From Acridotheres tristis (Eukaryota > Chordata > Aves > Passeriformes > Sturnidae), in assembly GCA_037013685.1 (NCBI GenBank), contig CM072899.1:630479-694478 (forward strand): 64,000 nt of DNA, written 5' to 3'. The notes beneath the pieces are model-generated. The model searched no databases and was not told the origin of the DNA. It saw only the letters and a list, made by a program, of their open reading frames with translations. Positions 7,574 to 45,962 of the stretch are shown here, piece after piece; the stretch's first letter is position 1; the number at the start of each line of letters is the position of its first letter. Made by a program: the position numbers and the translations under genes.

Positions 7574-10500
7574 CTACAGGACAGACAGACAGACAGACAG
7601 ACAAGTGCTTATTTCCAGCACCTCACCGAGCTGGAGCGTGGCAGAGCAGGGAGAACTGACCCCACACCTCCCACCGAGCCCATCAGCCATGGGGGTCAGC
7701 GATGGGCACATGAAATAATGAAATAATCCCAGGATGGTGTGGGTTGGAAGGGACCTGTAAAGAAAGGGACCCTGGCACAGGGGTGGTCACAGGGGCTCTG
7801 GTCCCTCCATACCCTGGCACAGGGGGTCCCGGGGGTCCCAGCTGTCAGTCCCCCCGGGGGTCCCAGCTGTCAGTCCCTCCGGGGGTCCCAGCTGTCAGTC
7901 CCCCGGGGGTCCCAGCTGTCAGTCCCTCCGGGGGTCCCAGGTGTCAGTCCCCGCGGGGGTCCCAGGTGTCAGTCCCCCGGGGGTCCCAGGTGTCAGTCCC
8001 CGCGGGGGTCCCAGGTGTCAGTCCCCCCGGGGGTCCCAGCTGTCAGTCCCTCCGGGGGTCCCAGGTGTCAGTCCCTCCGGGGGTCCCAGGTGTCAGTCCC
8101 CCCGGGGGTCCCAGCTGTCAGTCCCTCCGGGGGTCCCAGCTGTCAGTCCCCCCGGGGGTCCCAGCTGTCAGTCCCTCCGTACCTCGTCGCAGCCGGCGCA
8201 GCGGGGCCGCAGGCTCTCGCAGTAGTGCCGCCCACACCAGGCTGCCCCGCTCTTCCAGAAGTAGATGAGGTCCACCAGGGGCTCGGAGCAGCGGCAGCAC
8301 ACGAAGCAGCCCGGGTGCCACTGCCGCGAGTAACCGGCACGGTCGGCGTAGACCACGGGACAGTCCCCGGGCACGGGCTGCTGGCACGAGTCACAGCGCT
8401 GGGGACACACAGGGACAGGGACGGCGGTCAGCGTGGGGATGGACACTGGGGATGGGCACACAGGGGATGGGCACACAGGGGATGGGCACACAGGGGATGG
8501 GCACAGGGGATGGGCACAGGGGATGGACACACAGGGGATGGGCACACAGGGGATGGGCACACAGGGGATGGACACAGGGGATGGGCACACAGGGGATGGG
8601 CACAGGGGATGGGCACACAGGGGATGGACACACAGGGGATGGACACAGGGGATGGGCACACAGGGGATGGGCACAGGGGATGGGCACACAGGGGATGGGC
8701 ACAGGGGATGGACACACAGGGGATGGGCACACAGGGGATGGGCACAGGGGATGGGCACACAGGGGATGGGCACACAGGGGATGGGCACACAGGGGATGGA
8801 CACACAGGGGATGGACACAGGGGATGGGCACACAGGGGATGGGCACACAGGGGATGGGCACACAGGGGATGGGCACAGGGGATGGGCACAGGGGATGGGC
8901 ACAGGGGATGGGCACACTGGGGATGGGCACTGGGGATGGGCACAGGGGATGGGCACAGGGGATGGGCACACTGGGGATGGGCACTGGGGATGGGCACAGG
9001 GGATGGGCACAGGGGGCTGGGGCAGTGCTGGACTCTGCTCTTCACACCCACTGCATTTCCTCCTCCTCCTCCCTCCCGTTACACAGCACAGCCACGGGAC
9101 ATCTGCACCCCCAGGTGTTTTCCTGTGTTTGCTCACTCATCTCCCAGCACCCCGCGTTTCCCCATGGCCTCCTCCCTCCTCAGCTGTGTTCTCAGCGAGT
9201 GCCCCATGCCCTGGCTGCTGGGCACTGCCCGTTTGCCCAGGAAATCCAGGCTCACAGGATGTTTGCTGGCCTGGCTGCCCTGAGAGCTGAAAGGGGATCC
9301 GTGTGCTGCCACTGCTCCTTCCAGCACCACGCAGGGCTTCAGACACATCTCCAAGCACTGCCAGCCCCACGCCAGGGACAGGGGAAGGCCAGCACGGGGC
9401 AGGGGCTGTGGCAGCTCTGCTCTGTGTGGCACAGAACACAGCAGCTGTGGAGGCGGAGCCCTCGGGGACAGAAGGGACACCGAGCAGTTCTGCACCCAGC
9501 ACACCCCACTGAGGCCCCCAGTGCCCCCCTGAGGCACCAGATTTGGGGTCAGCCCCAGAGCCAGACCCTGCAGCTGCCTCTGCCCCATCAGCCCCAAGAA
9601 GCCACAGCCCCAGCAGCCCAGCCCTGCTTATCTTGCAGGATCGAAAGCAAGAACAAACACGGCAGTTTCCAACCCTCAGCTCAAGTTTCTTGGCAACAAG
9701 AACTGCTAAAAAACAACTCATTTTGCTGTTTCTTTCTATGGAAATTATTCACAGGGAAAAACTATTCACAGGGCTTTTCCCGAGCATTGTATAAGCCCAT
9801 ATCCTGCTATTTACACACTACAAAGAAGTGATTCTTCAAATTTGAGGTGGGATTACAGCTTGCTGCTCCTTTTACATCTCCATCATGCAGGCAGAGGAAT
9901 GGAGACTTTATTAGCTGAATTTCCAGAGGTCTTGGCCAAAAACGTGCCTTGTTCTCTTAAACTTTCCCACCCTGCTCATCCCCAGCTCCTGTTCTGCAGT
10001 GCCAGCTCCAGGGCAGGAGCTCCCAGACACCACTCTGAGCACTCCCTGCATTGCTGGCCTCGGGAACAACGACCCCAAGTTTGGATCAATTGCCTCGGGA
10101 TTTGATTTGATTCCAGGACAGTGACAGCAGAGGAGTTCCCAGTTCTGGGGGGATTAAGGATTCTGTGCTCTGTGGAGAAGTCTCAACTTGTGGGAGAGAC
10201 TTGCAGCAGGGATGTGCAGGAACACGAGGGATGTGCAGGAACACGAGGGATGTGCAGGAACACGAGGGATGTGCAGGAACTCGAGGGATGTGCAGGAACA
10301 CGAGGGATGTGCAGGAACTCGAGGGATGTGCAGGAACACGAGGGATGTGCAGGAACTCGAGGGATGTGCAGGAACTCGAGGGATGTGCAGGAACTCGAGG
10401 GATGTGCAGGAACACGAGGGATGTGCAGGAACACGAGGGATGTGCAGGAACACGAGGGATGTGCAGGAACACGAGGGATGTGCAGGAACTCGAGGGATGT

Positions 10501-13500
10501 GCAGGAACACGAGGGATGTGCAGGAACTCGAGGGATGTGCAGGAACACGAGGGATGTGCTCAGCAGGGCCAGGGGCCCCAGCCCTCCCTGCTCTGCCATC
10601 CCTGGGCTGTCCCAGAGGATCTGCCACTGCTGGGAAAGCTGCTCCATTTTTCAGCTGCTGCCTTGAGAGAAATGATGCTTCAAACTAAGGAGAATAACAT
10701 CACAGTTATGTATTTATTTATTTGAAAGGACAAACTCGCAGTTCAAGTAAACCCTCATTGCTAGGGAGGGTTTACTAGCAGTAAGTCATTGCTAGGATGA
10801 CTTATTGATATGTTTAAAGAAAACCTTCCTTTTTTGGCTATTTTTTATCTTAAAATTCAGTGTTTTGTTGCAATAGTGAAGATCTTTACTGTCACTGGAT
10901 TTGAAGTCAGAAGTACATTAAGAGACCATGGCAGAGGGGAGACATTACCCAATATGGCCTGAAAATGAAAACTGCTCTTTACATGTACAACCTCAGGGCA
11001 GGAATGGCAGGAAAGAATCTCCTCTTAAAAACATTTGGACATTATTTGCTTTTCCAGCTTTAAATCCTCTGCTGCAAGTCACCCTCACAAGGACCAGGAC
11101 AAGGTATTTCCACTCACCATATTTCATAATAAGCATCTGTTCAGCAGCCACTCCAGGCAGTGCTGGGGGAATATAAATCTAAAAGGGTGTTGAGGAATCT
11201 CAGCCATTCCTGTGGAAATGCATTTCTATGCCCAGGGACCCAGGGCAGCTGTTTGCATTTCCCCAGAGCAATTACAGCCCTGGGAACTCTATCTCCATGT
11301 CCACAGCTCTGTGGTAACTGCCCAGAGCTTCACCTCCTGCCGTTTGGGGTCTTCCTGGGTAAGAAGCCCACCTGGAAATATTGACTGGCATCTGGAAAAG
11401 ACCTCCAAGACCATCCAGTTCAGCTTTCAACTGGGTATCACCAGACACACTGCCTGTACCATCCAGGGACGTGTCATGTCCAACCTCTCAGAGCTGCCAA
11501 GAGCCCAGAGCTCAAACCAGCTCCCACAGGGAGCATTCCCTGACCCTGGTGGCTCAGCATGGCCTCTGCTGCAGAGAAAGGGAGATGAAGCAGAGGAGAA
11601 CACCCTCATCAGCCCTGCCAGAGGGACCCTTGTGCTCAGCAGGGCTGCCTGGAGCAGAGAGCCCCTGCAGGCTCTCACACTGCTGCTCCAAAGCATCACA
11701 GTGGACTGGGCAGCTGCAGCAGGCATGGAGAATGCCCTGGGAGCAGGATGGGGATGAGGCACAGGCCACCCTGCTGGTGATGTGACTGACTCTATTCCCA
11801 GTGACTCCCTGAGCCCAGAGCAGCCCTGCCCTATCCTATCCTATCCTATCCTATCCTATCCTATCCTATCCTATCCTATCCTATCCTATCCTATCCTATC
11901 CTATCCTATCCTATCCTATCCTATCCTAGCCTAGCCTAGCCTAGCCTAGCCTAGCCTAGCCTAGCCTAGCCTAGCCTATCCTATCCTATCCTATCCTAAC
12001 CCTTATCCTATCCATCTCCTATATCCCATCCTATATCTTATCCTATCCTATCCAATCTCCCATCCCAGCACATCCCATCATCCCATCCCATCCCATTATC
12101 CCATCATCCCATTATCCCATTATCCCATCCTCCCAGCCCACACTCACGTAGTTCCCTGTTCCCGTTGTGCTCTCCAGGGCCCCGTTGGGTGACTCTGGGG
12201 CTCCTCTGGCCTCCGTGTTCTTGTCCTGGGGCTTCTCCTCCTCCTTCCCGGCGCCGCCCTGGCCGGGCAGTGCCACCTCCCCGACTCCCAGCGCCTCAGC
12301 CTTGTACTTCCTGACGAACTCCTCCATCAGGGGCTGCTCTCCCTCGCCGAGCCCGCGGCACTGGGCCGGGTCCTGGTCGTGCAGGGGGAGCTGCCGGGCC
12401 AGGCGGCGCCGGCGATGCCACGCGCCCTCGGTGCCAGCCACGGGCTGCAGCTCCGGGGGCACCAGCTCCATGTACTGCATGGCCTGCAAGGGAAACAGGG
12501 CACAGCTCTATGTACTGTGTGAGAAACAGGGCACAGCTCCATGGACTGCATGGCCTGCAAGGGAAACAGGGCACAGCTCCATGGACTGTGTGAGACACAG
12601 GGCACAGCTCCATGGCCTGCAAGGGAAACAGGGCACAGCTCTATGTACTGTGTGAGAAACAGGGCACAGCTCTATGTACTGTGTGAGAAACAGGGCACAG
12701 CTCTATGTACTGTGTGAGACACAGAGCACAGCTCCATGGACTGTGTGAGAAACAGAGCACAGCTCCATGGACTGCATGGCCTGCAAGGGAAACAGGGCAC
12801 AGCTCTATATACTGTGTGAGAAACAGAGCACAGCTCCATGGACTGCATGGCCTGCAAGGGAAACAGGGCACAGCTCTATATACTGTGTGAGACACAGGGC
12901 ACAGCTCCATGGACTGCATGGCCTGTGTGAGAAACAGGGCACAGCTCCATGGCCTGTGTGAGAAACAGGGCACAGCTCCATGGCCTGTGTGAGAAACAGG
13001 GCACAGCTCCATGGCCTGCAAGGGAAACAGGGCACAGCTCCATGGCCTGCAAGGGAAACAGAGCACAGCTCCATGGCCTGTGTGAGAAACAGAGCACAGC
13101 TCCATGGCCTGCATGGCCTGCAAGGGAAACAGAGCACAGCTCTATATACTGTGTGAGAAACAGGGCACAGCTCCATGGCCTGCATGAGACACAGGACACA
13201 GGAAAAATTCAGTAGCAGTTGGGTCTGTGACACTGTCAGCCACCAATTCCACCTGACAGCTGATTTCACAGCACAGGGAAGGTGTTTGGTCACTGATGCC
13301 CCATGACACAGAAAGGAAACGCCCAGAAACCGCCCAAAATGAAGTCTGTGACTTAACTGCCACTAACTCAAGAGCAGAGCAAAGCCCTGAGCCTCAGGCT
13401 GGCTCAGTGCTCGTGGGCCATGGCTGCACAGTTCCTGCACAGTTAATGCAGTTCCTGCACATTTAACTTCTCCTGGCTGGGAACAGGGGAAGGGAGTTTC

Positions 13501-16500: not shown

Positions 16501-19500
16501 AATTCATAATAAAGAATAACACCTAGTGGAGGCTGTGGGACTCGTTCTGGAATCTTGTCCCACGGGCGTTTTTCTCAATTACCCAATGAGCTACTGTTGT
16601 ATCTCAGCTCTGCAAAACATACTATAAAAGTGCAAACCATACTATAAAAGTGCAAATCATACTATTAAAGTGCAAACCATGCTCTTCATAAAGGCCTTTT
16701 CCCTGAAGAGGTCTGTGCGTGTTGCTGCCCTCGCTCTCTGTCTAGCACAGCGACCACAAGCCGGGATTGACATTTTTTCCGCAATAACCCCATTGCAGAG
16801 CAGGGCTCCCGAGTTGTGTGTGTGACCTTACCAGCTTCTGGGTGAGCCCGGGGGGCGCCCACTCGTAGGTGACGGTGTCGAAGGTGGGGTCCTTGCCCGA
16901 GATGTTGGGGTTGGTGACGATCATGCGGTTCCTCTTGTAGAGGCGGGCGCCGTCGCCGCCCTTGAGGCGGGCGGTGAGGGAGGAGTAGCGCGACCCCGCG
17001 AGCAGCTGGCCCAGCTTGCGGTCCTCGTCCAGCTCCGAGCTCAGCCCGTGCTCCTCCTGGCTGCACCTGCACGACTTGCACATCTTCCTGTGCCGGGAGA
17101 CACAGCTCTGTCAGTCAGCCGCGCTGGGCTGTGTCAGTCAGCCGCGCTGGGCTCTGTCAGTCAGCCGTGCTGGGCTGTGTCAGCCGTGCTGGGCTGTGTC
17201 AGTCAGCCGTGCTGGGCTCTGTCAGTCAGCCGTGCTGGGCTGTGTCAGTCAGCCGCGCTGGGCTCTGTCAGTCAGCCGCGCTGGGCTCTGTCAGTCAGCC
17301 GCGCTGGGCTGTGTCAGTCAGCCGTGCTGGGCTGTGTCAGTCAGCCGTGCTGGGCTCTGTCAGTCAGCCGCGCTGGGCTCTGTCAGTCAGCCGCGCTGGG
17401 CTGTGTCAGTCAGCCGTGCTGGGCTGTGTCAGTCAGCTGTGCTGGGCTCTGTCAGTCAGCCGTGCTGGGCTCTGTCAGCCGTGCTGGGCTGTGTCAGTCA
17501 GCCGCGCTGGGCTGTGTCAGTCAGCCGTGCTGGGCTCTGTCAGCCGTGCTGGGCTCTGTCAGTCAGCCGCGCTGGGCTCTGTCAGTCAGCCGCGCTGGGC
17601 TCTGTCAGTCAGCCGCGCTGGGCTGTGTCAGTCAGCCGTGCTGGGCTCTGTCAGCCGTGCTGGGCTCTGTCAGTCAGCCGCGCTGGGCTGTGTCAGTCAG
17701 CCGCGCTGGGCTGTGTCAGTCAGCCGCGCTGGGCTGTGTCAGTCAGCCGCGCTGGGCTCTGTCAGCCGTGCTGGGCTCTGTCAGTCAGCCGTGCTGGGCT
17801 CTGTCAGTCAGCCGCGCTGGGCTCTGTCAGTCAGCCGCGCTGGGCTGTGTCAGTCAGCCGCGCTGGGCTGTGTCAGTCAGCCGTGCTGGGCTGTGTCAGT
17901 CAGCCGCGCTGGGCTGTGTCAGTCAGCCGCGCTGGGCTGTGTCAGTCAGCCGTGCTGGGCTCTGTCAGTCAGCCGCGCTGGGCTGTGTCAGTCAGCCGCG
18001 CTGGGCTGTGTCAGTCAGCCGCGCTGGGCTCTGTCAGTCAGCCGTGCTGGGCTCTGTCAGTCAGCCGCGCTGGGCTGTGTCAGTCAGCCGCGCTGGGCTC
18101 TGTCAGTCAGCCGTGCTGGGCTCTGTCAGCCGCGCTGGGCTCTGTCAGCCGTGCTGGGCTCTGTCAGTCAGCCACGCTGGGCTCTGTCAGTCAGCTGTAC
18201 TGGGCTCTGTCAGCCGTGCTGGGCTCTGTCAGCCGTGCTGGGCTCTGTCAGTCAGCCGCGCTGGGCTCTGTCAGTCAGCCGCGCTGGGCTCTGTCAGTCA
18301 GCCGTGCTGGGCTGTGTCAGTCAGCCGCGCTGGGCTCTGTCAGTCAGCCGCGCTGGGCTCAGGCACTGCTGCTGGTCGGGGGTTTTGGGGTCCCTTTGGG
18401 GTCCCTGAGGCTGCTCCTGCAGCTCTCAGTGATGGAGCACGGTCCCCAGCCTTGCCCAGATGGAATTGTGGCTCGTGGGGAGCTCTCAGACCAGCGGGGT
18501 ACAGAGACCAGCCCATGCAGAAAGGCACAAATCCATGGTTTATTCTATGGAGGCATCCTGTCTGCACATACCCACGGCTGTTGTTTTACTGGGGGTTTAT
18601 GTCTTCTGGGGGTTTTACAATTTGCACCAATTACCAAGGGAATTCTACTTTCTAACCAATCCCTGAGGGATTTCACATTCACAGCTGGCCTATGGATACT
18701 AAAAGAAAATGAACCACTAATATTGGAGATAGATAAGAGGGTCTACCAAGAGGGAGAAGCTAAATTCCTTTTGTATTCATCATTTCACAAGCCATTACTT
18801 ATCTCTAAGCTATGGTTTTCCATGAGGATGCAGGGAAACTTTCTTCTATGTTTTCTGCTCCCTCCACAATGCAGCACTGCAGTCCTGGGTTGTGAGACTG
18901 TGCCAGGGCTCCTGGCACAGCCCAGAGGCTCAGGGTGGGATGGGTTGGGCTGGGAGAGACCTTAAATCCACCCAGTGCCACCCCTGCCATGGCAGGGACA
19001 CCTCCCACTGTCCCAAACCTGTGGACACACACATTTAGAGATCCGGGGAATTACAGCTTGGCAATTCCTTCCAGGCCTGGATTTCTCCTGACTCTCAGCT
19101 CCATTCCCAGGCTGCCAAGCTGACTGCAGCTTCAGTTAGGGAGGAGTCTCCCAGGGTGACAACACGGTGACAAACAGAGTGGAATTCATCACCAACATTA
19201 ACCCCTGGTGTCTTTGCCGTGGGACACATCCTGAGGTGCTGTCCCAGGGATGTTTTTCCCAATTGTCCCATGAGCTCCTGTCCTGTCCTGGCTGCACTGA
19301 CACACTTTAAATCCGGGCTGTCTGTACAATAAATTGGCCTTTTTTCCCCAAAGAGCTCCGTGTGTGTTGCTGTCCTTTCTCTCTCTTTGCAGTGACCACA
19401 CAAACCCCAATGTCCAGCCTGGCCTTGGGCACTGCCAGGGATCCCAGCCCAGCTGCTCTGGGCACCCTGTGCCAGCCCTGCCCACCCTGCCAGGGAACAA

Positions 19501-43870: not shown

Positions 43871-45962
<2,092 letters not shown>

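Follow-up and report, generated by a model that had tools for sequence, protein, structure and literature searches.

How the splicing machinery settles on a single acceptor among a row of near-identical copies is the question raised by this locus, which lies in a 64-kb songbird window (the window being the whole stretch of 64,000 nucleotides that was analysed). The minus-strand muscle gene in the window is LMCD1, as the preliminary description had named it; it was located with human LMCD1 as bait, and its identity is borne out by database proteins named LMCD1. Exons E2 to E6 jointly read as 344 residues, and no LMCD1 exon earlier than E2 was identified in the 64-kb window. The features are as follows.

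20390-20320, minus strand: LMCD1 exon E2
16832..17087, minus strand: LMCD1 exon E3, phase 0, the upstream splicing partner of E4
12506..13201, minus strand: 21 decoy copies of 31 or 40 bp
12520..12520, minus strand: candidate branch-point A of the true acceptor, a motif match in CTCAC 37 nt before the exon
12466..12505, minus strand: copy 22, the functional acceptor CTGTGCCCTGTTTCCCTTGCAG plus GCCATGCAGTACATGGAG of E4
12463..12465, minus strand: CTG after the last copy, equal to the first three bases of the unit
12148..12483, minus strand: LMCD1 exon E4, 336 nt
8398-8183, minus strand: LMCD1 exon E5
7573-7418, minus strand: LMCD1 exon E6

The LMCD1 protein of Leucopsar rothschildi (P0022) shows zero differences from the window over E2-E4 and E6. 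The window would thus belong to a starling near the Bali myna, perhaps of a different species or from a different individual. E5 (8183-8398) is intact in the window, while the P0022 model has intron 4 sequence in its place (matching 11825-11592 with 2 internal differences and mismatches at the edges), and this replacement is likely a gene-model fault. In addition, the E6 acceptor tract (7574-7605) is a short GTCT repeat.

LMCD1 intron 3 is closed by a minisatellite of 22 head-to-tail copies (13201-12466), 16 of them 31 bp and six of them 40 bp long, and every copy joins 22 bases of intron tail to 9 or 18 bases of exon start, the exon half of copy 22 being the first 18 nt of E4 itself (12483-12466). 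Compared with this true copy, each 31-bp copy shows one 9-bp loss in the exon half together with 0-7 other differences. The intron halves of the decoys end in CCCTTGCAG in 7 of 21 cases, as at the true site, in CTCACACAG in 13 and in CTCATGCAG in one, which is the far-end copy of the array. A minisatellite made of the LMCD1 acceptor and exon start had been proposed from the first inspection, and this is confirmed by the 21-mer CTGTTTCCCTTGCAGGCCATG, which occurs nine times in the 64-kb window at up to 3 mismatches (eight times exactly), always inside the array or at the true junction, as compared with a maximum of 0 in 100 shuffles. Furthermore, the true 36-mer, described as repeating with one change, does match the array at 35 of 36 positions, and the best match elsewhere in the window reaches 23 of 36. 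The array is real and far beyond chance. The count of about 21 acceptor-like sequences holds as well, with 21 decoys and the true site. An array does lie at 12484..13190, but its limits had to be moved, to 13201 at the far end and, with the last copy running into the exon, to 12466 at the other; the exon share, put at seven codons, is six codons plus a CTG common to both ends; and the supposed 4-base link is most simply intron tail, as the unit re-phases gap-free into 22 plus 9 or 18 bases.

Judged by local sequence, the decoy-site problem that the preliminary description anticipated does exist. An AG is present in all 21 decoys, and over 20 intron and 3 exon bases, the stretch evaluated by common 3' splice-site models, five of the decoys are identical to the true site and two more are one base off. 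Scoring of each AG with such a model had been suggested; with a simple frequency table as weight matrix in place of a splice-site tool, the true site and the seven CCCTTGCAG decoys all reach 12.87 bits, another 11 decoys lie 3.1 to 5.4 bits lower and the remaining three more than 6 bits lower. The candidate branch-point CTCAC of the true acceptor sits in the neighbouring decoy copy, and YTNAY at -37, the same motif at the same distance, is kept in six of the seven CCCTTGCAG decoys. Since five decoys equal the true site over the scored stretch and six have the branch-point motif, the choice between them would have to come from position or exon context. Read from the sequence, AGs follow 5, 12 and 14 bases past the candidate branch-point A, which places them within about 12-15 nt of the branch point, a zone where, according to PMC1431707, AGs can be bypassed.

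What would follow from the use of a decoy can be read from its junction with E3. Among the 59 AGs of the region 13300-12483, the 21 repeat acceptors were analysed for stops, and all 21 lead to a premature stop, which is reached inside the array part in 17 cases and in frame-shifted E4 in four. Every one of these stops precedes the last junction by 367 nt or more, so that by the 50-nt rule for targets of nonsense-mediated decay (NMD) the decoy products are NMD targets. The exon would measure 407 to 970 nt from the CCCTTGCAG decoys, as opposed to 336 nt from the true acceptor. Decoy use, if there is any, would thus extend the exon, introduce a premature stop and end in NMD. Because every decoy carries such a stop, it is unlikely that the decoys add protein isoforms, which speaks against protein being made from the alternative exon starts envisaged at the outset. 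In line with this, a protein search with residues 107-267 of the isoform from decoy 13117, one of the 21 decoy isoforms and one whose array part reads in a shifting frame, gave a single match at E = 0.56 among 492 candidates.

We consider it probable that the array is a neutral minisatellite born from the exon boundary, of the kind known as mirages in amphioxus, which is tolerated while the true acceptor is the one mainly used, by way of exon definition. The array would then have no positive role. Both introns flanking E4 are long (4348 and 3749 nt), so E4 would be defined first and the acceptor nearest its donor favoured, with the lariat probably forming at CTCAC in the neighbouring decoy copy. 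According to PMC9225289, the splice sites that lie nearest to each other across the exon are preferred where the flanking introns are long, and the general preference for the upstream of two acceptors at least 20 nt apart is significantly reduced there. This same general preference means that appreciable use of the decoys may occur.

The alternative that retains most weight, albeit an unlikely one, is a splicing rheostat, in which the decoys divert part of the LMCD1 pre-mRNA to NMD and the number of copies determines how much is spliced productively. In its favour, seven decoys equal the true site by the frequency matrix and five are identical to it over 23 bases, and stops well ahead of the last junction in all 21 as well as the upstream preference described in PMC9225289 are in agreement with it. 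However, the universal stops follow simply from the TAYATAG units and from unit lengths that are 1 mod 3, the search with one array-read isoform returned nothing convincing (although NMD products are not expected there anyway), and both the amphioxus mirages and the human duplication 844ins68 are reported to splice normally, in PMC3087553 and PMC2630376, respectively. A further variant, equally doubtful, holds that the functional acceptor is a rolling member of the minisatellite, replaced in concert with the other copies, and that copy number tunes the loss of LMCD1 to NMD. If true, the acceptor VNTR would be a heritable expression dial in starlings.

It is improbable, and rather more so than the rheostat, that the array was mis-sized or even made by the assembler. 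Tandem arrays are often mis-sized, and the start of E4 is absent from 6 of 21 passerine LMCD1 clusters (best 120 of 479 relatives), which may mean gaps. On the other hand, seven kinds of intron half and seven kinds of exon half occur among the 22 copies, in irregular order and with no copied block. The copy number could nevertheless be wrong even if the array is real.

The missing E4 starts set passerines apart from other birds, 0 of 23 clusters of which lack them (Fisher p 0.0077; best 120 of 479), with bird groups assigned from names and nameless proteins, such as P0019, left out. Arrays or gaps are possibly present at the E4 boundary in other songbirds. However, later parts of E4 also drop out in passerine clusters (p 0.019 and 0.042; best 120 of 479), and so does E5 (5 of 21 passerine as compared with 2 of 23 other bird clusters; best 120 of 479), which counts against arrays as the cause of the missing starts. 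In the LMCD1 model of Calcarius (P0114), the sequence picks up again at LQPVAG, a short way into E4. An exact 24-mer gave 0 matches in viral_contigs, a set that is uninformative on birds.

The direction of growth is indicated by the exon. Of the 120 LMCD1 relatives listed (best 120 of 479), 109 carry QKLxxxYM across the E3/E4 junction, sharks among them. The exon edge thus predates any array in birds, and the array derives from the boundary. Growth outward from the exon boundary had been one of the two origins first considered, and it is upheld by an edge conserved in jawed vertebrates whose codons the array carries. Six arrays, one of them in intron 4 and the others beside LMCD1 exons, were assessed for exon-likeness. 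The intron 3 array aligns to exon bases 1-27 with a score of 42, whereas its 200 shuffles reach 26 at most; an exon origin was rejected for the other five of the six arrays tested in or beside LMCD1 introns, as their scores fall within the shuffles.

A boundary duplication with CTG microhomology would most simply account for the array. The exon after copy 22 runs CTG GTG and the unit starts with CTG TG, a 3-bp microhomology, and the intron half of the far-end copy plus the true exon 18-mer make exactly 40 bp, so an array can start from one tandem duplication of 40 bp without any linker. The founding step would have been a tandem duplication of 40 bp, from intron -22 to exon +18, helped by the microhomology of the CTG at 12463..12465, and amplification to 22 copies and 9-bp losses in the exon half would have come later. 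Derivation of a TGCCC link from exonic GTGCCC minus one base was set aside for the gap-free model of 22 + 18 bases; a somewhat longer exon contribution, with TGCCC from GTGCCC, is possible in view of the alignment that reaches exon base 27. The functional acceptor would behave like one more member of the array. Five decoys share its intron half exactly, while the far-end copy departs from it at 4 positions. This pattern is compatible with turnover within the array, and with an acceptor that has been homogenised with the array copies or that is their source, as far as sequence comparison can suggest. The far-end copy could be diverged rather than ancestral.

An array that arose independently in the intron, with an exon edge either replaced by array sequence or similar to it by chance, is very improbable. 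Tandem repeats occupy 28.9% of the 64-kb window (57 merged arrays), so arrays beside exons are to be expected, but such an origin is at odds with an edge that encodes a motif conserved to sharks among the relatives listed, with the 35/36 identity of the true 36-mer to the array, and with the lack of any exon match above shuffles in the other five arrays tested. An excess of tandem repeats around the LMCD1 splice sites was also considered and rejected: five of nine sites have an array within 50 bp (rotation mean 3.35, p = 0.23), and significance was not reached in any of the 12 pairings of setting with distance (lowest p 0.18). Among the neighbouring repeats, a 23-bp array of 56 copies (17105-18360) ends 17 bp from the E3 acceptor and contains 103 CTGAC motifs, of which the final two stand at -28 and -24 relative to that acceptor, so that E3 may draw its branch point from inside a minisatellite. 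A 25-bp array (7828-8179) starts 3 bp off the E5 donor and has 14 CTGAC motifs and no GT, and a tandem repeat with 348 GCTCTG copies lies at 43873-45960.

Equally improbable is the proposal that RNA structure masks the decoys while exposing the true acceptor. The array RNA does fold better than shuffles (z -4.36, 20 shuffles), but by its predicted probability of being unpaired the true site ranks midway among the eight CCCTTGCAG sites under one setting and last under two, so that folding does not single it out as a discriminator would. The probabilities are window-averaged and approximate, and one of them is slightly negative.

The preferred reading, a tolerated array with exon definition, can be set against several known systems. 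Literature searches made without the gene name LMCD1 found no bird acceptor minisatellite of this kind. In humans, the 6-16/IFI6 minisatellite is reported to have repeats that supply several splice donors at an exon boundary, and the 31-bp VNTR of CBS reportedly does likewise; those repeats are donor copies, whereas the repeats of the LMCD1 array carry the acceptor side. The human CBS duplication 844ins68 has two copies and is polymorphic in people, as opposed to the 22 copies seen here. Romano, in 2002, reportedly explained its splicing by G-runs and hnRNP proteins, an explanation that would not carry over to the LMCD1 array, as GGG is absent from 13194-12484. In 844ins68, the more distal site is strongly favoured according to PMC2630376, which writes "donor" for the intron 7/exon 8 site.

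The closest parallel is provided by the mirages of amphioxus, described in PMC3087553 as boundary-spanning tandem repeats, many copies of which have AG/GT signals, with the globins BflGb6 and BflGb9 and Adh3 as examples. BflGb6 has the same geometry as the LMCD1 array, combining the 3' end of an intron with the 5' part of exon 2, but in 6 or 3 copies of 150-160 bp instead of 22 copies of 31 or 40 bp, and the Adh3 units range from 10 to 72 bp. RT-PCR suggested that the mirages do not interfere with splicing (PMC3087553). The repeats of the LMCD1 array run head-to-tail over the intron-exon boundary and keep their splice signals, with an AG in 21 of 21 decoys and the true 23-mer in five. The array thus has the build of a mirage but lies outside the cephalochordates, for which the term was introduced: its host is a bird, a difference of taxon and not of structure. 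Boundary repeats are already known in amphioxus and humans, and the LMCD1 array is an unusually long case in a bird. It extends boundary-spanning acceptor repeats from amphioxus and a two-copy human duplication to 22 copies in a bird, and offers a natural test of how the spliceosome picks one acceptor from a near-identical row.
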